Source of the DNA: Rufibacter glacialis
GTDB taxonomy: Bacteria > Bacteroidota > Bacteroidia > Cytophagales > Hymenobacteraceae
Length of the DNA stretch: 64,000 bases
Assembly (NCBI RefSeq): GCF_008271745.1
Contig: NZ_VKKZ01000023.1
Coordinates: 186,001-250,000, forward strand
Reading direction: 5' to 3'
The notes below the pieces were generated by a model. It worked only from the letters and a program-made list of their open reading frames with translations, was not told the origin of the DNA and did no database searches. Each line of letters starts with the position of its first letter. The stretch's first letter is position 1. Below, piece by piece: positions 1-33,082 of this stretch. The translations under genes were made by a program, and so were the position numbers.

Positions 1-1152
1 CACAAGAAGATCTATAAGCAGACGGCCAACCCGTTTTCTGAGGGCCTGGCCTTCGCGCGACAGCCCAACAAGAACGAGCGGGTGGTGTATATCGTGGATG
101 AGGCCTCCATGATCTCAGACGACAAGGCCTTCGGCGACAACGGGCTGCTCCAGGATTTGGTCAACTACGTGTTTGAAAGCCCCAGCAACAAACTGCTGCT
201 CATAGGAGACACCGCGCAGCTGCCGCCGGTGAACCAGGCCATCAGCCCCTCACTGGATCCTTCGTACCTCACCAGTTACTTTAAGCTGCACGTGCACGAG
301 ATGGAGTTGCGCCAGGTGATGCGCCAGGCTGAGGAGTCCGGCATTCTGATGAACGCCACCCGCCTGCGCAACGAACTGGTCAAGGAGGAGCCGTCCCTGG
401 CCTTCAGAACCAAAGGGTTCAAGGATATCTTCTCCATGCGGGGCGATAAGCTGGAAGACGGCCTGCGATACGCCTACGATAAGTTCGGGATAGACAACAC
501 CACGGTTATCTGCCGGTCCAACAAAACGGCCAACTTGTACAACCAGCACATCAGGCGGCAGATTTTCTTTGCCGAGGACGAGATAGGGGTAGGCGATTAC
601 CTCATGATCGTGCGCAACAATTACACCTGGCTGCCCAAAGAGTCCAGCATCGGGTTCATGGCCAACGGCGATTTCGTGGAGATCACCAAGATCATCCGCT
701 ACGAGGAAATGTACGGCATGCGCTTCGCGGATGTCCAGATCAGGTTCGTGGATTACCCCAACGAGCCCGAACTGGAAACCAAGATCATGCTGGATACCCT
801 CTACACAGAATCGCCCGCGCTGCCCGCCGATAAAAACAAGGAGCTGTACCAACAGGTATTGATAGACTACCAGCATATCGCCAGCAAGCGCGCCCGGTCA
901 CAGGAAATGCGGCAAGACAAATACCTGAATGCCCTACAGGTTAAGTTCGCCTACGCGCTCACCTGCCATAAGGCGCAGGGCGGGCAGTGGCAGGCGGTAT
1001 TCGTGGACCATGGGTTCCTGAAGGAAGATACGGTAGGCCAGGAATTCGCCCGCTGGCTGTACACGGCCACCACCCGGGCCTCTGAGCAGCTGTTCCTGGT
1101 GAATTTCAATGAAAAACTGTTGGAGAATGCACCTGAACGGGTAGAAGATTAA
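1..1152 (+). CDS. RecD-like superfamily 1 DNA helicase, C-terminal part (5' end outside window)
   Basis: The frame is open from base 1, so the gene starts upstream of the window; the GTG at 82 is internal. The 383 visible codons hold helicase motif II (VDEAS, DE at codons 33-34), motif III (GDTAQLPPV, near codon 70) and, near the C terminus, ALTCHKAQGGQW followed by YTATTRASEQL, which is the UvrD_C_2-type motif V/VI end of RecD/Pif1-like helicases. The Walker A segment would lie upstream. Such proteins are ATP-driven 5'-3' DNA helicases used in repair or recombination. A DUF1573 gene follows 44 bases downstream on the same strand and has its own weak promoter-like box. The family assignment is firm; whether it is RecD2-like or an AAA_30 helicase cannot be settled from the fragment. 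Confidence 0.88.
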   Translation, partial: HKKIYKQTANPFSEGLAFARQPNKNERVVYIVDEASMISDDKAFGDNGLLQDLVNYVFESPSNKLLLIGDTAQLPPVNQAISPSLDPSYLTSYFKLHVHEMELRQVMRQAEESGILMNATRLRNELVKEEPSLAFRTKGFKDIFSMRGDKLEDGLRYAYDKFGIDNTTVICRSNKTANLYNQHIRRQIFFAEDEIGVGDYLMIVRNNYTWLPKESSIGFMANGDFVEITKIIRYEEMYGMRFADVQIRFVDYPNEPELETKIMLDTLYTESPALPADKNKELYQQVLIDYQHIASKRARSQEMRQDKYLNALQVKFAYALTCHKAQGGQWQAVFVDHGFLKEDTVGQEFARWLYTATTRASEQLFLVNFNEKLLENAPERVED

Positions 1153-9379: not shown

Positions 9380-10714
9380 TTATTGCGGACTGAGTTTCTT
9401 AAACCTCAAAAATAACAGAACCGCGGCAAAGGTAAGTCCTGTCAACAGACCCAACCACACGCCAATGGCGCCTAAACCAGCCCAGAAACCCAGCATGTAC
9501 CCCAGCGGCAGGGCAATAAGCCAATAAGAGAAGAGGGAGATCATGCTGGGGATCTTCACATCTTCCAGGCCCCGCAAAGCACCCAAACCTACCACCTGCA
9601 CCCCGTCAGACAACTGGAAGATGGCCGCAATGATAAGCAACTTAGAGGCCAGGGCATGCACAGAGACGTCTTCCACGTACAAGTGCGGAATCAAGTCTTT
9701 GCCCAGGATGATCAACAATGCACTCCCCGCCATGAATAAAACGCCCAGGATAAGGCTGGTGTACCCGGCGGTGTGCACGGCGTGGGCATCACTGGAACCG
9801 CGCAACTTGCCCACCCTAATGGTGGCCGCCGCAGAGATGCCGCCGGCCATCATATACGTCACCGAAGCTACGTTGAGCGCGATCTGGTGCGAGGCCAGCT
9901 CTCTGGCTCCCAGCCAGCCAATCATGACCGCAGAGAAACTGAAAGCCCCCATCTCAAAAATCATCTGCAAGGAAATAGGGAAACCGATCTTGAACATCCG
10001 GGTCATGTGGGTCCAGGATAGGCTCTGCCAACGCAGGTAGCTCCGGTAGTGGGCAAAGCGCGGCGCCAGGAAGATGAACATGGCCATCATGACCGCCATG
10101 AGTACCCTTGAAATCAAGGTAGCCCAGGCGGCCCCATTCAGACCTAAGGCCGGTAACCCCAACTTGCCATAGATGAGCAGGTAGTTCAGGATTATGTTGA
10201 TCACGTTGGCTATAATAGACACGTACATGGACTGCTTGGTGAGGGACAGCCCTTCGGCAAACTGCTTGAAGGCCTGAAACACCATGAGCGGCACCATAGA
10301 CAGGAACAGGATGTTCACGTACGGAATGGTCAACCGCACCACCTCGGCGGGTTGATTCAAAAAGGCAAGCAACGGCGAGAGGCCCCAGAAAGCCAGGAAG
10401 AGCAAAACGCCAATCAAGGTGTTCATGACCAGGCCGTTCAGCAGGATCAAGGCGATGCGGGTGTGGTTCTTACGGCCATCGGCGCGGGCCACCAGGGGCG
10501 TCATGGAAAACGAGATGCCCAGCCCAAAGACCAGGACAATGGTAAAGATGCTATTGCCCAACGAGGCAGCCGCCAATTGGAGCGTACCAATGCGGCCTGC
10601 CATGACGCTGTCGGCCACGGTAACCATAATGTGGCCTAATTGGCTTAACACCACAGGATAGGCCAACCAGAAAGTGCTTTTATAATGTTCGCGGTAGTGG
10701 GCGGAGAAAATCAA
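9380..10714 (-). CDS. MATE family multidrug/cation efflux transporter
   Basis: 444 residues with about twelve membrane helices in two similar halves, the normal MATE length. Characteristic segments are WLAYPVVLSQLGHIMVTVADSVMAGRIG at the N terminus, the MTPLVARADG loop and GLGALRGLEDVKIP in the second half. MATE proteins expel drugs or metabolites across the inner membrane in exchange for sodium ions or protons; the family member resembles the NorM/MdtK branch. It precedes the DUF922 gene on the same strand. Upstream is a 190-base intergenic region containing one copy of the GAAACAGGCC-type motif. Confidence 0.93.
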   Translation of the reverse strand: MIFSAHYREHYKSTFWLAYPVVLSQLGHIMVTVADSVMAGRIGTLQLAAASLGNSIFTIVLVFGLGISFSMTPLVARADGRKNHTRIALILLNGLVMNTLIGVLLFLAFWGLSPLLAFLNQPAEVVRLTIPYVNILFLSMVPLMVFQAFKQFAEGLSLTKQSMYVSIIANVINIILNYLLIYGKLGLPALGLNGAAWATLISRVLMAVMMAMFIFLAPRFAHYRSYLRWQSLSWTHMTRMFKIGFPISLQMIFEMGAFSFSAVMIGWLGARELASHQIALNVASVTYMMAGGISAAATIRVGKLRGSSDAHAVHTAGYTSLILGVLFMAGSALLIILGKDLIPHLYVEDVSVHALASKLLIIAAIFQLSDGVQVVGLGALRGLEDVKIPSMISLFSYWLIALPLGYMLGFWAGLGAIGVWLGLLTGLTFAAVLLFLRFKKLSPQ

Positions 10715-19821: not shown

Positions 19822-20571
19822 ATGGCAGCAACTATCGTATCGGTCATCAACCAAAAAGGGGGTACTGGTAAAACCACCACTACCATTAACCTGGGGAGTG
19901 CCCTTCAAAAACTGGGCAAACGCGTGTTGTTGATTGATCTTGACCCCCAAGCCAACCTGTCTTATTCCTTGGGAATCACAGAGCCTTCTGCTACCTTAGC
20001 AGAGGTGTTTGCCGGCAAGGTGAAACTCACTGATTGCCTGCAGGAAACCAACGGGCTTTTTGTGGTCCCTGGTTCCAATGACCTGGTAGATGTAGAGATT
20101 TCCTTAGTGAACCATGAGGAGCGGGAGCGTTTCCTGCAGCATTTTCTGGAAGAAGTGACTGGGTTTGATTATATTCTCATTGATTGTCCCCCAAGCCTGT
20201 CTTTGCTTACAGTAAATGCCTTGTCCACCTCGCATGAGGTGCTGATTCCGCTACAGATGGAAGTGCTCACGCTGCAGGGCCTGGGGCAGATCCTGAACAC
20301 GGTGCAACAGATCAAGAAAACGCTGAACGCCAAGCTGAAGGTCAAAGGAATTGTGGTGGTGATGTACGATAAACGCCGTAAATTAAGTGCCGAGATAGAA
20401 GATTACCTGAAAGAGAACATAGACGAATATATTTTCCAGCAGCGCATCAGACTGAATGTGAAACTGGCAGAGGCGCCTTCCTTTGGGCAAAGCGTCCTGG
20501 ACTATGATGCTTCCTCTTACGGGGCAAAGGATTATCTGGGTTTAGCCAAGGAATTTGTGGCACTTCCTTAG
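19822..20571 (+). CDS. Orphan ParA/MinD-family ATPase at the head of the chemosensory locus
   Basis: 249 residues. It has the deviant Walker A KGGTGKTTTTINL, switch I LIDLDPQANLSYSLG, switch II YILIDCPPSLSLLT and the C-terminal SFGQSVLDYDASSYGAKDYLGLA of Soj/ParA proteins. No ParB or parS-like array was seen near it. It ends 131 bases before the giant receptor gene on the same strand. In Rhodobacter sphaeroides the ParA homologue PpfA segregates cytoplasmic chemoreceptor clusters, and in Vibrio ParC positions polar arrays, so a role in placing this array is a reasonable inference. A chromosome-partitioning ParA encoded with its ParB elsewhere is the alternative. The gap holds an acttccggaagt palindrome (20579-20590) and a gatgtc/gacatc hairpin (20615-20637). 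Confidence 0.9.
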   Translation: MAATIVSVINQKGGTGKTTTTINLGSALQKLGKRVLLIDLDPQANLSYSLGITEPSATLAEVFAGKVKLTDCLQETNGLFVVPGSNDLVDVEISLVNHEERERFLQHFLEEVTGFDYILIDCPPSLSLLTVNALSTSHEVLIPLQMEVLTLQGLGQILNTVQQIKKTLNAKLKVKGIVVVMYDKRRKLSAEIEDYLKENIDEYIFQQRIRLNVKLAEAPSFGQSVLDYDASSYGAKDYLGLAKEFVALP

Positions 20572-20702
20572 CAAGGATACTTCCGGAAGTCTTGTTTTAT
20601 TAGTAAATTGCGAGGATGTCTGATAATAGAGGACATCTTATATAAAATTATTGGCACGTTGTGGTGCAGTAGAGGTAAAAACGCTCTTCATTCAAAGAAA
20701 AG

Positions 20703-23700
20703 ATGGCTTTAGGGAAAAACTTGAAACTCAACAAGGATAAATTGATTGGGAAGACAGAAAACGGGACGCCTGTTGAAGCGTCTACGGAGGGCGCTGCCTT
20801 GGCTCCGGTAGAGAATCCGGCTAACGCGCAGCCTGAGGAAATGCCAGCCCAGGAGGTCGCTACCCCAGAGGTACACCTCCCTTTGGTAGAGACTAACGGA
20901 AGAACTGCTACCACAAAGGCCCGTGCAGGAGGAAAATCAGTGGAGAAGAAAGAAGAGAAAGAAGAAAAAGCCATCATAGAATCTGAGACCAATGATCAGG
21001 CCCGGAAAAGCAATTCTCCGCGCCAGACCACCCAGACGCAGGATTCTGATTATATCAACGAGCAGCTGAACCGGGTGCTTTACGCCCTGGACGCCTTCAA
21101 GAAAGGGGACGTCTCCGTACGCTTGACCAAACAGAATAACGACATCTTCTCTGAGATTGCCGAAGCCTACAACTCCATGGTGGAGATGATTGGCGGCGTA
21201 GGAGGAGAGGTGTCGCGGATCTCTAAAGTGGCCGGGGTAGAGGGTAACCTGAAAGCCCGGGCCTCTGCTGAGAGTGCTTCCGGTTTCTGGAAAGACATGA
21301 TCAACAATATCAACGGCCTGGTAGACTCCATCGCCGTTCCGGTATTGGAGGTAGGCAAGGTATTGAAGAACATCTCCCGGGGTAACCTGGATGAGACGTT
21401 CCAGATTCCGGTGTCCGGTGACTTTAAGGTCATGGCTGAAACCATCAACCGTACCATTGACAACCTGAACCTGTTTGCCGGTGAGGTAACCCGGGTGGCC
21501 CTGGAAGTAGGTACTGAAGGGAAACTGGGCGGACAGGCCTCGGTACCGAACGTAGCCGGTATCTGGAAAGAACTAACCGACAACGTGAACGCGATGGCCT
21601 CCAACCTGACGCTTCAGGTACGGGACATTGCGAAAGTAACCACTGCCGTTGCCCAGGGGAACCTGGATCAGAAAGTAACGGTAGACCTGAAAGGGGAAAT
21701 GCTTCAGCTGAAAGAGAACATCAACCAAATGGTGGACTCTCTGAACATCTTCGGGGATGAGGTAACCCGGGTAGCCCGTGAAGTGGGTACCGAGGGTAAA
21801 TTGGGTGGTCAGGCGAAAGTGCCGAACGTAGGCGGGGTTTGGAAAGACCTCACCGACAACGTGAACACCATGGCCTCCAACTTGACCTCGCAGCTGCGTG
21901 ATATTGCCAACGTAGCCACTGCGGTTGCCAAAGGCGACCTGACCCAGAAAATCACGGTAAACGTGAAAGGCGAGTTAGCCGAACTGAAGGACAACCTGAA
22001 CCAGATGGTGGACTCCCTCAACATCTTCGCAGACGAAGTAACGCGGGTGGCGAGAGAAGTAGGAACCGAAGGTATTCTGGGTGGCCAGGCCAACGTGCCA
22101 AAGGTAGCCGGGGTTTGGAAAGAGCTGACCGATAACGTGAACTCTATGGCGTCTAACCTGACCCTCCAGGTACGGGACATCGCCAACGTAGCCACCGCGG
22201 TGGCCCGTGGCGAGCTGAGCCAGAAGATCACGGTAAATGTAAACGGAGAGCTCCTTCAGTTGAAAGACTCTTTAAACCAGATGGTGGACTCCCTCAATAT
22301 CTTCGCCGGTGAGGTAACCCGCGTGGCCTTGGAGGTTGGTACCGAAGGTAAATTAGGTGGCCAGGCCTCCGTACCGAATGTGGGCGGGGTTTGGAAAGAC
22401 CTGACGGATAATGTGAACTACATGGCGTCTAACCTGACGCTGCAAGTGCGGGATATCGCCAACGTAGCGACCGCGGTAGCGAAAGGCGACTTGACCCAAA
22501 AAATCACCGTGGACGTAAAAGGCGAGCTCCTTCAACTGAAGGACAACCTGAACCAGATGGTGGACAGCCTTAACATCTTCGCCGGTGAGGTAACCCGCGT
22601 GGCAAGAGAGGTAGGAACCGAAGGTAAATTGGGTGGCCAGGCCTCCGTACCTAATGTGGGCGGGGTTTGGAAAGACCTCACCGACAACGTGAACTACATG
22701 GCGTCTAACCTGACGCTGCAAGTACGAGATATCGCCAACGTAGCTACTGCGGTAGCGCGCGGCGACTTAAGTCAGAAAATCACTGTTGGGGTAAAAGGCG
22801 AACTAGCTGAGCTGAAGGACAACCTGAACCAAATGGTGGATTCCCTCAACATCTTCGCTGGGGAAGTAACCCGCGTGGCGCTGGAAGTGGGTACGGAAGG
22901 TAAGCTAGGTGGCCAGGCCTCTGTGCCAAATGTAGCCGGTACCTGGAAAGCCCTTACTGACAACGTAAACTCCATGGCGTCTAATTTGACGCTGCAAGTG
23001 CGGGATATTGCCAATGTGGCCACTGCCGTTGCCCGCGGTGACCTAAGCCAGAAGATCACGGTGAACGTGAAAGGCGAATTAGCCGAGCTGAAGGACAACC
23101 TGAACCAGATGGTGGACTCCCTCAACATCTTCGCCGGCGAGGTAACCCGCGTGGCGAGAGAGGTAGGAACCGAAGGTAAATTGGGTGGCCAGGCTTCTGT
23201 GCCTAATGTAGCTGGAACCTGGAAAGCCCTTACAGATAATGTAAACTCTATGGCGTCTAATTTGACGCTGCAAGTAAGAGATATCGCGAACGTAGCTACT
23301 GCGGTAGCACGCGGGGACTTAAGCCAGAAAATCACCGTGGATGTGAAAGGCGAGCTCCTTCAGTTGAAGGACAACCTAAACCAGATGGTGGATTCCTTGA
23401 ACATCTTCGCTGGTGAGGTAACCAGAGTGGCGAGAGAAGTAGGTACTGAGGGTATCTTAGGTGGTCAGGCCAATGTACCTAACGTAGGCGGGGTTTGGAA
23501 AGACTTAACTGAGAACGTGAACTACATGGCCTCGAACCTTACCTCTCAGGTACGGGACATCGCCAACGTAGCTACTGCGGTAGCCCGCGGCGATTTGAGC
23601 CAGAAAATAACCGTGGACGTGAAAGGTGAACTTCTTGAACTGAAGAACAACCTGAACCAGATGGTGGACAGCCTCAACATCTTTGCGGATGAGGTAACCC

Positions 23701-26144
23701 GGGTGGCCCGCGAGGTGGGAACCGAAGGGAAACTAGGCGGTCAGGCCTCCGTGCCTAAAGTACGTGGTACCTGGAAAGAACTCACTGACAATGTGAACTC
23801 CATGGCGTCTAATTTGACGCTGCAGGTGCGGGACATCGCCAACGTAGCTACTGCGGTAGCGAAAGGCGATTTGACCCAGAAAATCACCGTGGATGTAAAA
23901 GGCGAGCTCTTAGAGCTGAAGAACATCTTAAACCAGATGGTGGACAGCTTGAACATCTTCGCTGGTGAGGTAACGCGGGTAGCTTTGGAAGTAGGTACCG
24001 AAGGGAAACTGGGAGGTCAGGCTTCTGTGCCGAATGTGGCCGGAACCTGGAAAATGCTCACCGACAACGTGAACTCCATGGCGTCTAACCTGACTTCTCA
24101 GGTACGGGATATTGCCAACGTAGCCACCGCGGTGGCGAAAGGTGACCTAAGCCAGAAAATGACGGTGAACGTGAAGGGCGAGATCCTTCAACTGAAAGAT
24201 ATTTTGAACCAGATGGTAGACTCCCTCAACATCTTCGCGGGTGAAGTAACCCGGGTGGCGTTAGAGGTAGGTACCGAAGGAAGATTAGGTGGACAAGCCA
24301 AAGTGCCCAATGTGGCTGGGGTTTGGAAAGACCTAACCGATAATGTGAATACCATGGCGTCTAACCTGACGCTGCAAGTGCGGGACATCGCCAACGTGGC
24401 CACCGCGGTAGCGAAAGGGGATTTGACCCAGAAAATCACCGTGAATGTACGGGGTGAGTTAGCTGAGCTGAAAGACAACCTGAACCAGATGGTGGACTCC
24501 CTCAACATCTTTGCCGGGGAAGTAACCCGGGTGGCGTTAGAGGTAGGTACCGAAGGAAGATTAGGTGGCCAAGCCAAAGTGCCGAATGTGGCTGGGATTT
24601 GGAAAGACCTGACGGATAACGTGAATACCATGGCCTCTAACCTGACGACTCAGGTACGGGGAATCGTGAAAGTAGTAACGGCGGTATCTAAAGGTGACTT
24701 AACTCAGAAACTGACCTTACAAGCCAAAGGTGAATTAGCAGACCTGGCGGATACCATCAACAGCATGGTGGAAGACCTGAACCGCTTAGCGGGTGAGGTT
24801 AGCCGGGTGGCCAGAGTAGCCGGGGTGGAAGGGAAGCTGACGGAGCGGGCCACCGTGCACGGTGTATCAGGTAGCTGGAAAGAGCTGGTAGATACCCTGA
24901 ATGATCTCTTAGAGTCCATCGTAACGCCAGTATTGGAAGTATCCCGTGTGGTACGTTCTATCTCTGAGGGTGATTTAACCCAAAAAGTAGAAATCCATAC
25001 CGCCGGTGATATTCTGGCTATGTCAAACGCCTTGAACCTGGCGGTAGACAACCTGAATGCCTTATTAGGTGAAATCAATGATTCTTCGCTCATCGTGGGC
25101 TCGTCTTCTGAAGAGATGGCTGCCAAAGGATTGGAGATGAACCGGGTAACGGTAGACGTAGCATTGGCCATGCAACAAATGGCAGAGGGTGCACAGAACC
25201 AAGCCTTGAAAACAGACCAGGCCTTCAAACTGATTGAAGAAATCATGAAGGCCACCAAAGAAACCGCCAACAAAGCGGATGTAGTGAACCGTTCAGCGGT
25301 AATGGGAGAGGAAACTTCCCAGTTGGGTCTGAAAACAGTGGCCGAGGTGGTACGCAACATGGAAGAAATCTCTTCTTCTGCAGCCCTGACCGCCAAAACC
25401 ATTGAAGTACTGAGCACCCGTAGCCAGGAAATCTCTAAATCACTGGGGGTGATCACGGATATTGCAGCCCAAACCAACTTACTGGCCCTGAACGCAGCCA
25501 TTGAGGCCGCCAGAGCCGGCGAGGCAGGACGTGGTTTCGCGGTAGTAGCCGAGGAAATCCGGAAATTGGCGGAAGGTTCGCGCAAATCAGCGAGTGAGAT
25601 CAATACGCTGGTAGATGATGTGAAGAAAGATACCTCTTCTGCCGCCGCGGCGATTGCTACCATGGAAGGGCGGGTATTGAAAGGAAAGAATGCCACGTTT
25701 GAGGCATCCGGGGCCTTTAAGAACATTGCCACCTCCAGCGGTGAGACGCTCCGCAGTGCCCAGGATATCTTGGTGTCTACCGAAGTACAGAAAACCTCTA
25801 TTGGCGACGTAGTGAAATACGTGGAAGAAGTGGTAGCCATTGCGGAACAGACGGCCTCTGGTACCCAGCAGGTAGCCGGAACCGCGAAGCAACTATCAGC
25901 TTCCATGCAGGAGATGACTTCTGCCTCTCAGCGTCTGAATGACATTGCAGATGACCTGCAGGGAAGTATTTCCGCCTTCAAGCTGGTGAACGGAAACCTG
26001 GTGTTCCCTAACCGCAACGCCCGCAAATTGTCAGCAGTGCCGGCGCCGCGCAAACGCTCCTTCACCGGAGACGAGGCCAACGACGTAGATTTTGACAATA
26101 AGATTGCGAGCAAAAAATCGTCTAAAAACAGAGGTCAGGAATAA
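20703..26144 (+). CDS. Giant soluble poly-HAMP methyl-accepting chemotaxis receptor
   Basis: 1813 residues. Residues 1-105 are charged and probably disordered, with a lysine-rich start ([17 protein letters not shown]) and a KKEEKEEK stretch. Residues 106-1393 are fourteen back-to-back units of exactly 92 residues; typical unit landmarks are [51 protein letters not shown] and [10 protein letters not shown] last HAMP (1394 to about 1455) leads into a coiled-coil MCP signalling domain whose hairpin tip is near 1586-1625 ([32 protein letters not shown]). No signal peptide or membrane segment is visible, so it should be cytoplasmic. The units closely resemble the poly-HAMP repeats of fungal group III hybrid kinases (Nik1 type). 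The stop overlaps the cheW start (TAATG). Confidence 0.95.
21018..24881 (+). repeat. 276-bp in-frame tandem repeat array (14 units)
   Basis: Unit boundaries recur every 276 bases with no insertion or deletion: 21294, 21570, 21846, 22122, 22398, 22674, 22950, 23226, 23502, 23778, 24054, 24330, 24606, 24882 (each begins just after the xWK codon pair). The first unit, 21018-21293, is divergent. Units at 21846-24605 are nearly identical by eye; those at the two ends of the array are more diverged. All lie inside the receptor gene. Assembly collapse or unit-number variation is possible here. Confidence 0.95.
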
Positions 26145-26644
26145 TGGAGTCTCAGAACATCAGAGATAAAAAGGAGAAGGTAGTAGAGGAGAAGGTGCAC
26201 CTGATTGTCTTTAAACTAGGCCTGGAGGAGTACGGCGTGCGCATTGACCAGGTAAAGGAGGTAACCATTACCCCTGAAATCACCCGCATGCCCAAAACAC
26301 CTTCCTTCATAAAAGGGGTCTCCAACATCAGGGGGGACATTATCGCTATTATGGACCTGGAAGAGCGCTTCAGAATTGAGCGCCCTTCCGGCTTGCCGCA
26401 CCAGCATACGTATACCTTGGTGATGGAAGCCAGGGAGTATACCATGGGCTTTATTGTACACGAGGTGCCCCAGTCTCTGACCTTGCCCGTATCCAGCATA
26501 GACAAAGCACCTTCCTTTATCCAGGACATCAACATCAATGAGAACTTCATTGAAGGCATAGGGAAGCATGAAGACCGGCTCATCATAGTGCTGGACATCT
26601 TCAAGATCCTTACTTCAGATGAAGTGATGCAATTGAAATCATAG
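26144..26644 (+). CDS. cheW: CheW-like coupling protein
   Basis: 166 residues. The CheW beta-barrel pattern is clear: LIVFKLGLEEYGVRIDQVKEV, ITRMPKTPSFIKGVSNIRGDIIAIMDLEERF, and the C-terminal FIEGIGKHEDRLIIVLDIFKIL. CheW links receptor hairpin tips to CheA in chemosensory arrays. The start ATG shares its A with the stop of the receptor gene (TAATG), so the two are translationally coupled and probably made in fixed proportion. A short charged N-terminal extension (about 17 residues, KKEKVVEEK) precedes the domain. Confidence 0.93.
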   Translation: MESQNIRDKKEKVVEEKVHLIVFKLGLEEYGVRIDQVKEVTITPEITRMPKTPSFIKGVSNIRGDIIAIMDLEERFRIERPSGLPHQHTYTLVMEAREYTMGFIVHEVPQSLTLPVSSIDKAPSFIQDININENFIEGIGKHEDRLIIVLDIFKILTSDEVMQLKS

Positions 26645-26668
26645 TGCTCATATTTGACCTTATTACTT

Positions 26669-27049
26669 ATGGAAATCACCGATAAAAAAAGAATACTGAT
26701 TGTAGATGATTCTTTCTACATGCGCACTATGTTGAAGAACATGCTGCTAGATGCCGGTTATGATGTAGTAGGGGAAGCCCCAGACGGAAAAACGGCGCTC
26801 CAGATGGCCAAAGACAAAATTCCGGATCTGGTGACACTAGACGTGATTTTGCCAGACAACACCGGCCTAGATGTGCTCAAGGGAATCAAACAGGATAACC
26901 CAGACATCAAGGTTGTGATTGTAAGTGCCGTAGGGCAGGAAGTGATCATGACCGAGGCCGCTGAATATGGCGCCTTGCACTACATCATCAAGCCCTTTTC
27001 AGAAGACAAAGTGCTGGAAGCGTTGAGCAAAGCCTTTCAAGGAGAATAG
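26669..27049 (+). CDS. cheY: CheY-like response regulator
   Basis: 126 residues from the ATG at 26669; an in-frame ATG at 26654 adds five residues and cannot be excluded. It is a single receiver domain with all functional residues: the acidic pair in LIVDDS, the phospho-accepting Asp in VTLDVILPD, the switch Ser in VIVSAVG and the Lys in YIIKPF. There is no output domain, so it acts by binding a partner. It follows cheW by 24 bases. As the only stand-alone regulator in the locus it is the probable target of CheA and of the CheC phosphatase. The physical output (gliding, pili or something else) is not encoded here. Confidence 0.92.
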   Translation: MEITDKKRILIVDDSFYMRTMLKNMLLDAGYDVVGEAPDGKTALQMAKDKIPDLVTLDVILPDNTGLDVLKGIKQDNPDIKVVIVSAVGQEVIMTEAAEYGALHYIIKPFSEDKVLEALSKAFQGE

Positions 27050-27086
27050 CAGAAAAGAACCTTACCTTCCGCCACCCTATCTACCC

Positions 27087-28214
27087 GTGCAGCAGACGCA
27101 GCAACCAAAAATTAAGGTCTTAATTGGGGATACCTCCGTACGCTCCAGATTGGTGCTTTCCGGCATGATAGATGCCGAGCCCCAACTGGAGGTGGTGGAT
27201 ACTGCCCAATCCAGAGAAGAATTGCTGTTCAAGGCAATGGCTTCCAGACCTGATTTGATTGTGGCCCAGTTCAGCATGACCATGAGTGGCCGGGTGCCCT
27301 TTTTCCAGCCTGTTTTTGGCGAAACGTCTTCTTTGCTGCTCATGGTGTCCCAGGATTGGGCTCAGACGACCACTGGTTCTGCGCCATTCTCCTATCTTCA
27401 CCGGGTAAAACCGTTTCAGGGCTCTTTTGAGAAAAACGCCCCCAAAGAAGGCCTCAAGACAGGTTTTATGTCGTGCCTGCGGGAATTTGTAGGTCAGTTC
27501 ATTTCCGGCGCCCAGAAAGAAAAGCTTAAAGAAACCAGCCCCATGGGGGAGGCTTCCTTGAAAAAATCTTTTTTGGGTCCGCCAGTTCGTGTGGATGCCC
27601 CTCTGCCGGTGGTGGCCATTGGCGCTTCCACGGGTGGTTCCTCCGCGTTGGAATACTTGATAAAGGATCTTTCGCTGCAACAGCCCGCTGTAATCTTAGT
27701 GGCGGTGCACATGCCAGAGAAATTCACCAGGCGCCTGGCCCGCCGGTTGCAGAAACTGACCACCTGGCGGGTAGAGGAAGGCTTTCAAGGCATGGCGCTT
27801 CTTCCCGGAACCATTGTCATTGCGCCGGGTGGCCAAGACATGCGGGTGAAGAGGACCACAAGGGGAGCTTACCAATTTGAACTGGATTTGGAACCCTCTC
27901 TGGCCATGGACTCGCCCTCCGTAGATGCCTTGTTTCAATCGGCCGCTTGCTGCGCCCAGGAACAGGTGCTAGGCATTATCCTGACGGGTATGGGCCAGGA
28001 CGGTACCGCCGGGGCCAGGGTGGTGAGGGAGAACGGAGGCGTGGTGATTGCCCAGAATGAGGAGACTTCCACGATTTTCGGGATGGCCAAGTCAGCGATT
28101 GAGAGTGGGGCAGTGAATGGGGTGTTTGCTTTAGGCCAAATTAATTCTATTATCAACCGGTTCGTCACAGACCGGAACATGAGCGCTATGCTCCAACAGA
28201 AATTGGTAGGATGA
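27087..28214 (+). CDS. cheB: CheB-type receptor methylesterase with degenerate receiver domain
   Basis: 375 residues from a GTG at 27087; this start preserves the receiver-like KIKVLIGDTSVRSRLVL beginning. The N-terminal domain (about 9-130) has a receiver fold pattern, but the phospho-accepting Asp is missing (PDLIVAQFSMTMSG where D is expected before xxMPxMxG) and one of the paired acidic residues is lost. The C-terminal domain (about 180-370) is an intact CheB methylesterase: nucleophile Ser in GASTGGSSAL, His in VAVHMP and Asp in TGMGQDGT. CheB removes methyl groups from glutamates of the receptor. Its activity therefore is probably not switched on by phosphorylation. It overlaps cheA by four bases (ATGA). 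Confidence 0.9.
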   Translation: MQQTQQPKIKVLIGDTSVRSRLVLSGMIDAEPQLEVVDTAQSREELLFKAMASRPDLIVAQFSMTMSGRVPFFQPVFGETSSLLLMVSQDWAQTTTGSAPFSYLHRVKPFQGSFEKNAPKEGLKTGFMSCLREFVGQFISGAQKEKLKETSPMGEASLKKSFLGPPVRVDAPLPVVAIGASTGGSSALEYLIKDLSLQQPAVILVAVHMPEKFTRRLARRLQKLTTWRVEEGFQGMALLPGTIVIAPGGQDMRVKRTTRGAYQFELDLEPSLAMDSPSVDALFQSAACCAQEQVLGIILTGMGQDGTAGARVVRENGGVVIAQNEETSTIFGMAKSAIESGAVNGVFALGQINSIINRFVTDRNMSAMLQQKLVG

Positions 28215-29842
28215 AGTCGAGAGATCAGGAGTATAAAGAGATATTTATAGCCGAGGCTCTCGAGTACTATGATGCGCTGAACCGGCACATCAGTGATCTG
28301 GAGAAGAACCCAGAAGATGAGCAGTTACTGGCCGAAATCTTCCGGCTGCTGCATAACCTCAAGGCCAATGCCAAGGCCATTGGGTATGAGTCCATTGGGG
28401 ATGTGTCACATAAACTGGAAACCGCCTTCGGTTTGATCAGGAGCCGCGAACTTAGTTTCAGTGATGAGGTAGTGACGGTTCTTTTTGACGGCGTGGATCT
28501 GTTAGGAGAGATGATCACTAACATTGACAGCCCCAAAGAGGTAGAACCCAGCCCCGAGCTGCTCCGCAACCTGGACATCATCATTAATTCTCTCTCTGAA
28601 AATTCATCAGAGTTAACAAAGGTCCAGAAATACTACACCACCAAGAACCTCTCGCTCTCTGACCTGATCTATATTCAGATCAAGAAGTTGGATCATCTGC
28701 TCAACCTGGTAGGAGAGCTGATCATTGACCGGGACCGTATCTTTTCCCTGAGCAAGGAACTGGACAACGAAGACCTCAAGAATGTAAGTGCCCACCTGTA
28801 CCGTATCACCGAGGAGTTGCAGTACAGCGTCATGGACGCTCGCTTGGTTAACGTAGGGTCTTTGTTCAATAAATTCCCCCGGATTGTGAGGGATATTGCG
28901 GTGGTGGAGAAGAAGGAGATCAACCTGGAGATTGTAGGCCAGGATATCCAGATAGACCGGAATATCCTCCAGATCATCACAGACTCTTTGCTGCACTTGA
29001 TGCGGAATGCAATTTCGCACGGCATTGAGAAAGAAGACGTTCGCAAAAAAAACAAGAAAAGCCCGCAAGGGAATGTAACGCTCTCGGCCCAGAACGACCG
29101 GGACACGGTGATCCTAAAGCTCATTGATGACGGCAAAGGCATAGACCAGCAGGAAGTGAGAAAGGCCATTGTGAATCGCGGTTTTCTGACGGCAGATGCC
29201 GCCGCTGACCTTCGGGATACAGAGGTTTTGTCTTACCTGTTTGAACCCGGCTTCTCCCTGGCCAAAGAGGTAACAGAAGTGTCGGGCCGTGGGGTGGGAT
29301 TGGATGTGGTTAAGAACGCCATTGATTCCATAGGCGGCAGAATCAAGGTAGATTCCAAGAAAGGCGAGGGCACTACCTTCACGCTTTTCCTGCCTACTTC
29401 TATTGCCGTGAAAGGGGCTTTGCTGTGCCAGGTGGAAGAGAACTTCTATGCCATCCCGCTCATGCACACCGACTCGGTGGTGGCTTTCCCCACCCAGGAA
29501 CTGCACGAGGTGGGAGACCTTTTGGTAGCCGATATCAATGGAGAGACCATTACCATCATCTCCATGCGCGAGTTGTTCAATACCGATCTCAACGACTACA
29601 GCGTTAAGAAAAGCGATTTAAACGGAGATGCGCAGAACATCATTATAGTGACCTACAACAACCGGAAGCTGGGACTCATTGTGGACAAACTTCTGCGGCA
29701 GCAGGACATTGTGATCAAGGCTTTAAGCAAACCGGTCAATACCATTGAAATTTACGCCGGGGTTACCCTTTTAGGATCAGGCAAAGTGTGTCTGGTGCTG
29801 GATGTGGCGGCTATTACGCGTTACTTTATTGCCAGAAGGTAA
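28211..29842 (+). CDS. cheA: Compact CheA-type chemosensory histidine kinase
   Basis: 543 residues, short for CheA (usually 600-750). Order: a phosphotransfer P1 domain (about 1-105) with H48 in LLHNLKANAKAIG, a short linker where the CheY-binding P2 domain would be, P3 dimerisation helices (about 145-200), the P4 ATPase (about 200-400: MDARLVNVG, LMRNAISHGIE, DDGKGID, VSGRGVGLDVV) and the P5 CheW-like domain (about 405-540). The Gly normally after HxLK in P1 is Ala52. It would autophosphorylate in the array and pass phosphate to CheY. The start overlaps cheB by four bases. Confidence 0.93.
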   Translation: MKSRDQEYKEIFIAEALEYYDALNRHISDLEKNPEDEQLLAEIFRLLHNLKANAKAIGYESIGDVSHKLETAFGLIRSRELSFSDEVVTVLFDGVDLLGEMITNIDSPKEVEPSPELLRNLDIIINSLSENSSELTKVQKYYTTKNLSLSDLIYIQIKKLDHLLNLVGELIIDRDRIFSLSKELDNEDLKNVSAHLYRITEELQYSVMDARLVNVGSLFNKFPRIVRDIAVVEKKEINLEIVGQDIQIDRNILQIITDSLLHLMRNAISHGIEKEDVRKKNKKSPQGNVTLSAQNDRDTVILKLIDDGKGIDQQEVRKAIVNRGFLTADAAADLRDTEVLSYLFEPGFSLAKEVTEVSGRGVGLDVVKNAIDSIGGRIKVDSKKGEGTTFTLFLPTSIAVKGALLCQVEENFYAIPLMHTDSVVAFPTQELHEVGDLLVADINGETITIISMRELFNTDLNDYSVKKSDLNGDAQNIIIVTYNNRKLGLIVDKLLRQQDIVIKALSKPVNTIEIYAGVTLLGSGKVCLVLDVAAITRYFIARR

Positions 29843-29878
29843 AAGCTGATGGGAAACAACATTATTAATGCCTGATTC

Positions 29879-30502
29879 ATGGAGCTTCAAGTAAATGAAC
29901 TAGAGCGGGATATCATCAAAGAGATCCTGAACATAGGGCTTGCCCGGGCAGCTGACTCGTTCGCAGTGATTGCCAAAGACCGTGTACTGCTGAAAGTGCC
30001 GGACCTGCAGTTAATGGAGGCCGAGGAGTTGCTGAAAATAGTACGGGCGTATGAGAATTCGCATACGATTATCCAGTCAGACATAAAGGGGGAACTGAAT
30101 GGGTCTACCCTGATGCTATTCTCTGACCTGCATGTGGAACAGCTGTCAAAGGTGTGCCTGGGCATGACCGTGAAAGGGAGTGACCCTCTCACTGAGATGC
30201 AGGAGTCGCTGCTGCTGGAAGTAAGCAACATCATTACCGGGGCTTTGGTGACCCAGTTGGCCAATATCTTGAAATCCAATATCTACGGGTCGCCCCCGGT
30301 GGCCCCCAAACATGATATCGCTGAATCGCTCAAGGGTATTTTTACGGACCATCCGTTGTTCCAGCCCTTGGTGTTCACCGTCATCACCCAGTTCACCAAC
30401 AACTCCAAAATGGTGGAGTTGCCGCTTCTCCTGTTTTTTGATACCAATACCTTTATCAAGATCCTGGAAATCATCAGATCCTATAACTTCCTTACCAAAT
30501 AA
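29879..30502 (+). CDS. cheC: CheC family CheY-P phosphatase
   Basis: 207 residues. Two copies of the phosphatase signature D/S-x3-E-x2-N-x22-P can be counted: D11, E15, N18, P41 in the first half, and SLLLEVSN with the proline of GSPP in the second half. Two active sites are the mark of CheC or FliY rather than CheX. It would hydrolyse phosphorylated CheY and is the only chemotaxis phosphatase gene in the locus. No CheD gene follows. It starts 36 bases after cheA and is the last gene before a perfect 13-bp terminator at 30529-30563. Confidence 0.88.
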   Translation: MELQVNELERDIIKEILNIGLARAADSFAVIAKDRVLLKVPDLQLMEAEELLKIVRAYENSHTIIQSDIKGELNGSTLMLFSDLHVEQLSKVCLGMTVKGSDPLTEMQESLLLEVSNIITGALVTQLANILKSNIYGSPPVAPKHDIAESLKGIFTDHPLFQPLVFTVITQFTNNSKMVELPLLLFFDTNTFIKILEIIRSYNFLTK

Positions 30503-30702: not shown

Positions 30703-31986
30703 ATGGACGCTTTAGGAAGACATATCCTGGTGGAGTTTTACAACTGCTCGCCAGAATTGATGAACGATGTTGTACATATTGAGAACAGCATGGTGGCCGC
30801 CGCTGAAACGGCCGGGGCCACGGTCATCAACAGTACCTTTCACCATTTCTCTCCCTATGGTGTGTCTGGGGTAGTGGTTATCCAGGAAAGCCACCTGGCC
30901 ATCCATACCTGGCCTGAGTTCGGCTATGCCGCTGTGGACCTTTTTACCTGCGGCGATTCCGTGGACCCCTGGGTTTCTTACAATTACTTGATTGAAGCCT
31001 TTGAGGCCAGCCATGGCTCTTCCATGGAATGCCTGCGGGGGCAGCAGAGCCTTTTAAAGCGCACGGATTTCACCGTGGAGGCCCGCGACTCTGGCCAGCA
31101 GGTGACGCCTATTCCCCGTATCAAGCGGGATGTGTGGTTCACGGAGCGCGACGAAAACATTGCCCTTTCCTTAAAACACACCGGAAACCAGCTCTACAAG
31201 AAACAGTCGCCCTACCAGAAAGTGGAGGTGTTTGAGACCTTGGCCTACGGCAACATGCTTACCTTAGACGGCATGGTGATGTGTACCCAGAAAGATGAGT
31301 ACGTGTACCACGAGATGATCACGCACGTTCCGTTCTTCAGCCACGGCAATGTAAAGCGTGCTTTAGTAATAGGCGGCGGCGACGGCGGAACGGTGCGGGA
31401 GCTGCTTCGGCACGAGAGCATTGAGGAAGTGGTATTGGTAGAGATAGATGAACTGGTGATTGAAGCCTGCAAGGCCCACCTGCCGGAGACCGCCAGCGCC
31501 TTTGACCACCCAAAACTTAAATTACTCATTGAAGACGGCATCAAATACATTCAGGAAGGTGCTGACAGCTCTTTTGATTTGATCATCGTGGATTCTGCGG
31601 ATCCTGTTGGCCCCGGCGAAGGCTTGTTCACCGCTGAATTCTACAACCAGGTGTACCGGTGCCTGACTCCTGAAGGCGTCATGATCACCCAAAGTGAATC
31701 GCCTAGGTTCAACACCAAGGTGTTCGTGGAGATTTTTGATACGTACAAAGGAATATTTGGGGCAGACAACGTGCATTGTTACCTGGCGGCCATTCCTACG
31801 TATCCCACTGGTACCTGGAGTTTTTCGTTCTGCTCTAAAGGAAGCGTGCACCCCAAGAAGTTCAACCAGGAGGCGGCTGCGGCTTTCTCCCGCACCCAAG
31901 GCTTACGCTACTACAATGAAGACATCCACGGGGCCGCTTTTGCCCTGCCTAATTTCGTAAAAGAGTTACTTTCTTCTAACCAATAG
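30703..31986 (+). CDS. Fused S-adenosylmethionine decarboxylase / spermidine synthase (SpeD-SpeE)
   Basis: 427 residues in one uninterrupted frame. Residues 1 to about 120 are a class 1b AdoMet decarboxylase: [10 protein letters not shown], the self-cleavage site E62-S63 in [12 protein letters not shown], and C83 in DLFTCGD, in the same numbering as the Thermotoga enzyme. Residues about 145-415 are an aminopropyltransferase: [20 protein letters not shown], nucleotide loop [25 protein letters not shown] and catalytic [11 protein letters not shown]. Together they make decarboxylated SAM and transfer its aminopropyl group to putrescine to form spermidine. The agmatinase-family gene follows after four bases. 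Self-cleavage would release a short beta chain from the N terminus of the fusion. Confidence 0.94.
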
Positions 31987-31990
31987 TTGT

Positions 31991-33082
31991 ATGAGTTTGA
32001 ACATGCCTACCATGTGCGATTCCAAGCACACCAAGATCACCTCTTTTGACCAGAACGGGGTGGGGGAAGTGGGAAGCGGCCTGTTTGGCCTCCCTTTTAC
32101 CCAGGAAGAATCTGAAATCGTGATTTTTCCCATTCCCTGGGAAGTAACCGTTTCCTACAACGCCGGCACCGCCGAGGGCCCCGCGGCCGTGCGAGACGCC
32201 TCGCCCCAACTGGACCTGTTCGATCCGGAGTTACCCAACGCCTGGCACCTGGGCATCCACATGCCGGCGGTTCCGGAAGATTGGGCGCAGGAAAGCCAGC
32301 GCCTGCGTGAGAAAACGGAAGCGTACATTGAATTTCTGGAAAACGGCAGCAAAGGGGACAGCGCTATCCATGAGGCAACCATTGAAGAAGTAAACCAAAG
32401 AGGTGAGGCTTTGCTGCAATGGTCCAAGAGAGAAACCCTGGCCTTGCTGGAACAGAACAAGCTGGTAGGGGTTTTAGGCGGAGACCATAGTACGCCGTTG
32501 GGCTTCATGCACGCTTTGGCGGAAAAACACGAGGAATACGGCATCTTGCAGGTTGATGCCCACGCCGACTTGCGTGATGCCTATGAAGGGTTTACCTACT
32601 CGCATGCCTCCATCATGTTTAATGCCTTGAAGCTGCCCCAGGTGAAAAAACTGGTGCAGGTAGGCATCAGAGATCTTTGTCAGGCAGAAGCGGAGTTGGT
32701 AGATCAGTCTAATGGCCGCATCACCACCTTCTATGACAGCAAGATCAAAACCAAGATGTATGAAGGAACCTCGTGGCGCAAGCAGTGCAAGAAGATCATT
32801 GCGCAGTTGCCCCAGAAGGTGTACATCAGTTTTGACATTGATGGCTTAGACCCCAAGCTTTGCCCAGGTACGGGAACCCCGGTGCCCGGTGGGTTTGAGT
32901 TTGAGGAGGCAGTGTACCTGATCAAGGCCCTGGTGAAATCAGGCCGGGAGATCATTGGGTTTGATTTATGCGAAGTGGCCCCCGGTGACACAGAGTGGAA
33001 CGGAAACGTAGGCGCGCGCCTGCTCTATAAACTCTGCAACTGGATGGCCGTATCACAGAAACGCTTAGAAGCTTCGCATTAA
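31991..33082 (+). CDS. Agmatinase-family ureohydrolase
   Basis: 363 residues, longer than the usual 300-320. The binuclear manganese site is complete: GGDHST, DAHADLRDAYEG and SFDIDGLDP. The likely reaction is agmatine to putrescine and urea, since the gene sits four bases after the fused speD-speE gene that would use putrescine; formally, arginase or another guanidino hydrolase is possible. An acidic insert near residues 105-140 (EFLENGSKGDSAIHEATIEEV) accounts for part of the extra length. A small membrane-protein gene follows after 16 bases. Confidence 0.88.
   Translation: MSLNMPTMCDSKHTKITSFDQNGVGEVGSGLFGLPFTQEESEIVIFPIPWEVTVSYNAGTAEGPAAVRDASPQLDLFDPELPNAWHLGIHMPAVPEDWAQESQRLREKTEAYIEFLENGSKGDSAIHEATIEEVNQRGEALLQWSKRETLALLEQNKLVGVLGGDHSTPLGFMHALAEKHEEYGILQVDAHADLRDAYEGFTYSHASIMFNALKLPQVKKLVQVGIRDLCQAEAELVDQSNGRITTFYDSKIKTKMYEGTSWRKQCKKIIAQLPQKVYISFDIDGLDPKLCPGTGTPVPGGFEFEEAVYLIKALVKSGREIIGFDLCEVAPGDTEWNGNVGARLLYKLCNWMAVSQKRLEASH

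Follow-up and report, generated by a model that had tools for sequence, protein, structure and literature searches.

The window analysed here, a stretch of 64,000 nucleotides from a Rufibacter glacialis contig (NZ_VKKZ01000023.1), holds a chemosensory cluster of seven plus-strand genes, in which the gene for a ParA-type ATPase ends 131 bases before that for a methyl-accepting receptor, followed by the genes for CheW, CheY, CheB, CheA and CheC; Pfam assigns all seven as the first-pass annotation, made from the sequence alone, had named them (Table 1). That annotation had also described the receptor as lacking a membrane segment, and a check for a membrane helix by a single method, Kyte-Doolittle hydropathy, came out negative: the hydropathy maximum is only 1.35 (19-residue window), and hence the receptor is predicted to be soluble. 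The genome (5.3 megabases in 25 contigs, 99.95% complete) has one match to the methyl-accepting chemotaxis protein (MCP) domain, which is this receptor; in a profile search its CheA scores 1156.6 bits and the next matches of the same genome at most 36.5 bits. Thus, as far as the assembly shows, the cluster looks like the organism's one chemosensory system. Our main finding concerns the extreme N-terminus of the receptor, where a short peptide is, with few exceptions, present in relatives that possess this ParA and absent from those that lack it, which suggests that ParA uses it as a handle to place the sensor cluster in the cell.

Table 1. Features of the chemosensory cluster, in window positions.
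Feature	Position	Strand	Basis
ParA-type ATPase, 249 aa, deviant Walker A KGGTGKT, che-type subfamily	19822..20571	+	Pfam AAA_31 5e-54
Soluble (predicted) methyl-accepting receptor, 1813 aa	20703..26144	+	Pfam HAMP_2 + HAMP + MCPsignal
Receptor N-terminal peptide, 15 residues, proposed ParA-binding/activating tag	20703..20747	+	Alignment and co-occurrence
Variable linker, ~100 residues, between peptide and HAMP array	20748..21047	+	Alignment of 16 receptors
Poly-HAMP array, 13 full 92-residue units with flanking partial units	21069..25088	+	Pfam, Tandem Repeats Finder (TRF), unit starts
MCP signalling hairpin, residues 1532-1712	25296..25838	+	Pfam MCPsignal 1.5e-38
CheW	26144..26644	+	Pfam 6.4e-30; one base common to receptor gene
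CheY, single receiver domain	26669..27049	+	Pfam Response_reg 8.9e-28
CheB methylesterase without recognisable receiver domain	27087..28214	+	CheB_methylest 2.4e-52
CheA kinase, 543 aa, with Hpt, dimerisation, HATPase and CheW-like domains	28211..29842	+	Pfam
CheC phosphatase family protein	29879..30502	+	Pfam CheC 1.3e-10; NCBIfam CheC_Thtogales 1.5e-19, below curated cut-off

A CheA search across 59 genomes, that of the window included, recovered a close CheA in all 36 other genomes of the same family, and the flanking stretches were taken from all 36. Among named organisms, Rufibacter species come nearest, their CheA reaching 92% identity. Each of the 36 family genomes has the poly-HAMP receptor, CheW, CheY, CheA and CheC, with CheB detected by BLAST in 29/36 and ParA in 27/36. 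Such recurrence is far removed from chance, and chance linkage was set aside as an explanation. Bar two contig breaks, topA stands upstream of the cluster and an arginase-family gene downstream of it across the stretches, the latter being found in every one (36/36). ParA lies directly 5' of the receptor in genera g1 to g4, and in G016 and G022, where a contig break falls within the repeats, ParA and the receptor N-terminus stand at the end of another contig. Neither among the window genes nor in the family stretches is there a parB beside the parA-type gene. The Rufibacter, Pontibacter and Adhaeribacter lineages keep the linkage of ParA to the receptor, but it does not extend to Hymenobacter, where the poly-HAMP cluster occurs and ParA is missing. 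A genome-wide search found no che-type ParA in any of the nine genomes of g5 and g6, the best ParA hit there being 42% identical, the level of the window genome's own Soj (41%), and all nine keep the rest of the cluster, CheB having gone undetected by BLAST in two of them.

The receptor N-terminus follows the same division. All 28 ParA-bearing members of the family, the window's own included, start with MALGKN[LM]KL[NS]K[DE]KLI, and the nine ParA-less members (9/9) do not. When the receptors of 16 ParA-bearing relatives are aligned, this peptide is nearly invariant and the linker behind it variable; an AlphaFold model of residues 1-214 has no helix before residue 109, at low confidence (mean pLDDT, the predicted local distance difference test, 49.2). 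A set of 80 named loci, which overlaps with the family genome set, gave 69 readable and 11 unreadable cases. ParA and peptide occur together in 43 of the readable loci (Pontibacter 29, Rufibacter 9, Adhaeribacter 4, Sabulibacter 1), and neither occurs in the other 26 (Hymenobacter 25, Solirubrum 1).

Beyond the family, a CheA profile was run against 395 genomes of the class (13 genomes matching at 1e-60) and 341 of the order (108 matching at 1e-100), from which 10 and 40 stretches, respectively, were taken. The table built from all sources has 173 stretches, of which 32 were dropped: the 5' end of the receptor was cut in 16, no receptor lay upstream of CheA in 11 and a CheA of the subfamily was missing in five. 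The remaining 141 hold 124 distinct CheA sequences. At these 124 loci, ParA is accompanied by a MALGxN-type start in 66 cases (65 on the receptor and one on CheW), 56 have neither, two have the peptide only and none has ParA only; the two features hence agree in 122/124. A stricter table gives 64 with both, 57 with neither, three with the peptide only and again none with ParA only. In the final table the motif is narrower, which drops the L211 hit inside a PAS domain, and the labels accept a ParA anywhere in the stretch and the peptide on any receptor or CheW; L096, whose receptor is split, and L208 thereby entered the class with both. The contrast exists even inside one genus, with G040 carrying ParA and peptide and G473 neither.

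We also searched in the reverse direction, with a DNA pattern for M-A-[LF]-G-[KNDE]-N-hydrophobic-[KR] and the backward pattern as a control. The 341 genomes of the order yielded 45 matches in 43 genomes, and the control a single match (G017). Forty-three of the 45 were examined (G709 and G712 were left out): three open fewer than 16 codons, and 36 of the other 40 have ParA in the same cluster. Of the four long matches without ParA in the cluster, three lie in genomes with a che-type ParA at another place. For 36/40 the carrier was identified as a receptor or its poly-HAMP part, a CheW or a PAS-like protein; in G615, G530, G553 and G558 the stretch was too short to name it, the first three starting almost exactly like the receptor of G492. 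Across 390 genomes of the class, a real gene stood at a pattern match only in the window's own genome, with the three other matches opening 9, 13 and 26 codons and the control giving one match. Finally, a profile of the che-type ParA was run against 39 genomes without a linked ParA, and seven scored at least 313 bits, the rest at most 265. In three genomes (G053, G483 and G535) the che-type ParA is unlinked and the exact peptide is carried by a receptor-type protein elsewhere. In G162, ParA directly precedes an open frame (L266, positions 1-867, minus strand) that holds MALGKNLGN; this frame resembles a truncated globin, and the motif stands about 140 residues in, perhaps through fusion or an internal start.

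The peptide is not confined to receptors. At locus L208 (G651) both CheW proteins carry it, with starts including MALGENIKSAKK, and ParA, which has KGGTAKT instead of KGGTGKT as its Walker A motif (9768-10508), lies directly before the second of them; the two receptors of this locus lack the peptide and begin, as read by eye, with strongly hydrophobic stretches. A locus of the same type without ParA (L209, G668) has CheWs without the peptide. At four further loci (L250, L251, L252 and L254, in G449, G474, G523 and G497) a protein of ~215 residues, starting with MALG[ED]NIKRERMIP, is encoded at most 50 bases after ParA. The one that was scanned gave a PAS match at about the curated limit, and BLAST with the window's proteins recognised no che genes in the four stretches. 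That three kinds of protein bear the peptide alongside this ParA would be difficult to account for without a contact between peptide and ParA.

As to the nature of this putative contact, the solved structures nearest to the window ParA by sequence are the ParA/Soj proteins 8ray and 1wcv. The che-type ParA of the family differs from Soj in a loop, PLQMEVLTLQG as against PVQCEYFALEG, and we infer that this loop may touch the peptide. In ParB, the ParA dimer interface is bound via an N-terminal motif with hydrophobic L11, L15, L18 and I19 and a central basic R13 (PMC12462528), and residues 1-22 of PomX suffice for ATPase activation, with TlpT and McdB noted as having similar basic N-termini (PMC7993993). 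More generally, ParB, PomX and other activators of ParA/MinD ATPases have a short hydrophobic and basic N-terminal peptide before a flexible part, with the rest of the protein unrelated (PMC12462528, PMC7993993, PMC13170346), an arrangement that the window receptor may share. The protein encoded after the window genome's own Soj, called ParB by its place and motif, starts with MSDNSAKKKPSGLGRGLNALI, and the window peptide shares with it an L-G-x-x-L spacing and a later L-I. Among 19 peptides chosen with a motif in which L3, G4 and N6 are set in advance, Lys at position 8 is kept in 16 and a hydrophobic residue at position 7 in all 19. Unlike ParB, however, the window-type consensus is LGxN[LI]K, as against LGRGL in the own ParB, the central charge is variable, and the carriers are a receptor, CheW or a PAS-like protein.

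Taken together, these observations lead us to the following plausible mechanism. The receptor, CheW and CheA would form a cytoplasmic chemosensory array that signals via CheY and CheC. The first 13-15 residues of the receptor would be a flexibly tethered peptide that binds to and activates the ATPase of the dedicated ParA, and ParA-ATP, most likely nucleoid-bound, would position or partition the array, as proposed for PpfA/TlpT. The peptide would be portable, such that any carrier, be it a receptor, CheW or another protein, becomes ParA cargo, with the poly-HAMP array being a separate input or relay module that group III-type hybrid kinases also have. On the strength of the sequence comparisons, we consider it likely that the peptide activates ParA by contacting it and that ParA places a cytoplasmic array over the nucleoid. 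We also lean, a little more cautiously, towards a general form of this proposal: MALGxN[LI]K...K.LIP (~13 residues) may be a transferable address tag of Cytophagales that makes its carrier, whatever the fold, the cargo of a dedicated ParA subfamily. It would place the giant array in Rufibacter, Pontibacter and Adhaeribacter; Hymenobacter, which is without both ParA and tag, probably by joint loss, may hold its array by a basic nucleoid-binding patch.

Several points weigh against this proposal. Many of the rows behind the co-occurrence are close kin. Because of this relatedness, changes were counted on a CheA tree (a quick one with long branches, on which the program warned, and on which gain and loss are not separable), giving only seven changes of ParA and nine of the peptide. 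Five independent pairs stand on well-supported branches, and four to five of them agree with none opposite, for which the sign test gives 0.0625 at best, the lowest value that five pairs can reach. There are also individual misfits: G485 and G462 have ParA unlinked and only a variant, MASGKEIKRDRLIPS, on the receptor; G493 has a che-type ParA but no pattern match; G674 lacks a che-type ParA but carries a MALGKN-type start, MALGKNSQKETLAEG; in G558, whose assembly is 89% complete, the full peptide stands without a che-type ParA; and the peptide of G275, though beside ParA, is poor in Lys and Arg. Position 5 of the 19 chosen peptides, which matches the central Arg/Lys of ParB, is K in six (the window among them), D in six, N in five and E in two. 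Since this position varies, the chemistry is not that of ParB; the peptide would work like a ParB peptide, but with no constant central Arg/Lys it is not one. Lastly, the median charge of the tails is +4 with ParA (47 tails) against +2 without (31 tails).

The relatedness of the rows and the seven ParA changes on the tree are what one would expect if peptide and ParA did not interact and merely co-travelled in a few lineages through the linkage of their genes. We nevertheless regard this as very improbable, for the peptide tracks ParA even at unlinked positions (G053, G483 and G535), on CheW or a PAS-like protein as carrier, and despite sensor parts as unrelated as PAS repeats and poly-HAMP. 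The tail charge bears on another reading, in which the N-terminal tail binds the nucleoid directly and ParA is just a gene neighbour. The precedent is FrzCD of Myxococcus xanthus, which has a basic N-terminal tail and two HAMP domains and forms a cytoplasmic DNA-bound array (PMC5716589, PMC12077210). The first 17 residues of the window receptor do have a net charge of +4, and 30/35 ParA-less poly-HAMP receptors have a basic R[KR][KR]G patch ahead of their HAMP units; it occurs in 0/52 of those with ParA. However, the whole 115-residue tail of the window has a net charge of -3, conservation lies at the extreme N-terminus, whose fixed residues track ParA rather than charge, and the patch, being confined to ParA-less receptors, points away from the window and suggests FrzCD-like nucleoid binding in the ParA-less lineage; net charge, with its higher median in the tails with ParA, does not divide the two sets in that direction. 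For the window receptor, we thus find direct binding quite unlikely. The receptor resembles FrzCD as a soluble MCP with HAMP domains and as a candidate for a cytoplasmic array, but differs in having a linked ParA gene and a fixed N-terminal peptide that tracks ParA. The ParA-less poly-HAMP loci with the patch are mostly those of Hymenobacter (L062-L070, L131-L164).

A contact between peptide and ParA need not involve a nucleoid gradient, for ParA might act at the pole or another landmark. In Vibrio, the ParA-like ParC holds arrays at the poles via ParP, in which a long proline-rich linker joins an N-terminal part to a CheW-like one (PMC5706961), and in Halothiobacillus ParC is needed for polar clusters, with CheW taken as its partner (PMC10241942). 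Thus, in both cases a ParA-family ATPase localises arrays via a CheW-like or CheW partner, and the peptide on CheW at L208 accords with this. In the window, however, the peptide is on the soluble receptor itself (it is on CheW only in G651), there is no ParP-like gene among the cluster genes, and the nearest solved relatives of ParA are ParA/Soj proteins. Hence, placement at a pole is an unlikely alternative, though one we rate above direct binding, to positioning of the array over the nucleoid through an activating peptide.

The first-pass annotation had likened the ParA beside a soluble receptor to PpfA/TlpT of Rhodobacter sphaeroides, and the likeness is borne out by the conserved linkage of ParA and its joint presence and absence with the receptor peptide. 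PpfA positions the TlpT cluster (PMC3964821), and PpfA homologues occur in the che operons of 77/206 species, or 37% (PMC2829493); thus, the kind of system is already known. As in the window, the CheOp3 cluster of R. sphaeroides has a ParA-type ATPase gene beside a soluble MCP, and the N-terminus of that receptor is thought to activate the ATPase (PMC3964821, PMC7993993), TlpT being compared here by description and not by sequence. In contrast to CheOp3, the window has one CheA, a CheC and a poly-HAMP receptor that is the single MCP of the genome, in which neither a stand-alone CheR nor an FlhA match was found. What appears to be new, as far as our literature search goes, is the presence of a poly-HAMP receptor in such a system, the joint presence and absence of the peptide and ParA, and the occurrence of this peptide on CheW and PAS-like proteins as well. 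In the open-licence literature, the matches listed include no chemosensory cluster of Rufibacter, Hymenobacter or Pontibacter, nor the peptide, which was not searched by name, so that this is weak evidence of novelty. On the question of how ParA/MinD ATPases recognise cargos unrelated to one another, these lineages offer near-matched natural comparisons: a cluster that comes both with ParA and without it, and a peptide borne by a receptor, by CheW or by an unrelated protein, make a cargo code testable.

The sensor part of the receptor can be considered apart from the proposed tag. Residues 215-1410 comprise 13 complete 92-residue units, preceded by a degenerate one; behind them, a last HAMP half continues into the MCP hairpin. 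The fourteen units of the first-pass annotation hold as the number of unit starts, but not as the number of complete units. Pfam marks 14 HAMP_2 and 13 HAMP stretches, and TRF a 276-base unit in 11.5 copies with 79% matches. The likeness that had been seen to the array of fungal group III hybrid kinases, with an MCP hairpin as output in place of a kinase, stood up on both counts. A stretch of 276 array residues is 76% identical to a Bosea protein with HAMP repeats, GAF, HisKA, HATPase and three receiver domains, and the array matches the solved structure 9trk, labelled histidine kinase, at 282 bits; hence, the comparison with group III-type kinases is sound. These kinases have the same tandem 92-residue HAMP units as the window receptor with a HisKA, HATPase and receiver output, whereas the window receptor is without these and MCPsignal is the only output domain assigned by Pfam. 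No poly-HAMP kinase was seen in two further stretches of the own genome, which is no real test, as these were chosen from weak CheA hits and one cuts a large open frame. Middle units of the window, picked by motif, share 81 to 85% of their residues with their counterparts in nine receptors from other genera; for G654 the figure is 77%. We also noted that three HAMP units (window 22449-23276) have 76% identity to plasmid-encoded proteins of Rhizobium, Bosea and Ensifer, a degree of cross-phylum conservation that is unusually high for a relay domain.

This array and ParA are distributed independently of each other. Outside the family, 12 ParA-linked, peptide-bearing receptors have at most two HAMP units, and the two of these that were scanned have 13 and 8 PAS domains in place of the long HAMP array. 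Conversely, at three loci outside the family (L165, L196 and L206) a poly-HAMP receptor occurs without ParA, in genomes that lack the che-type ParA. Thus, poly-HAMP and ParA appear to be separable modules that recombine independently.

Regarding the input, Pfam recognised no ligand domain in the receptor. By analogy with what is thought of the fungal group III kinases, the receptor might be a sensor of osmolarity or turgor, a reading compatible with any of those on ParA; the kind of HAMP unit common to the window, the Bosea hybrid kinase (76% identity) and 9trk (282 bits) would favour it. Common units do not prove a common stimulus, though; two receptors of the same cluster type in another family have PAS domains instead of the long array, and the number of HAMP units per receptor ranges from 9 to 16 (unit profile, 90 distinct poly-HAMP loci). 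Hence, we are doubtful of osmotic sensing and deem it unlikely.

Two outputs were considered and set aside. The FlhA family, as a marker of flagella, had matches in 0/36 genomes and none in the own genome, with 4/14 control genomes positive. The PilT family, as a marker of type IV pili, had 0/36 over the cut-off, with sub-cut-off matches in 5/36, three of them near 1e-50, and none in the own genome. GldL of the gliding and type IX secretion system (T9SS) motor was over the cut-off in 35/36 genomes and in 0/14 control genomes; the own genome has a match. GldL is present with or without this type of cluster and is therefore compatible with being the output but not specific. Thus, a chemosensory system is present in a genome without an FlhA or PilT family match, and a gliding or T9SS motor controlled by CheY is a possible output. 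In its available part, a paper on T9SS direction names CheY for the flagellar motor only (PMC12239597).

With respect to adaptation, no stand-alone CheR was found in the own genome: the two strong CheR matches are CheB-CheR-PAS fusions (L083 7063-10167 and L084 4581-8684, one with kinase domains), and a third match is weak. As the strong matches are fusions, methylation-based adaptation is uncertain. The CheB of the cluster, whose gene overlaps that of CheA by four bases, keeps GASTGG, HMP and TGMGQDG, with no receiver domain recognised (Response_reg E = 0.25). CheY most likely starts at ATG 26669 rather than at TTG 26654. Downstream of the cluster, window 30703-33082 encodes a fusion of S-adenosylmethionine decarboxylase and spermidine synthase, and then the arginase-family gene; the fusion lies downstream of the cluster in some family stretches only.

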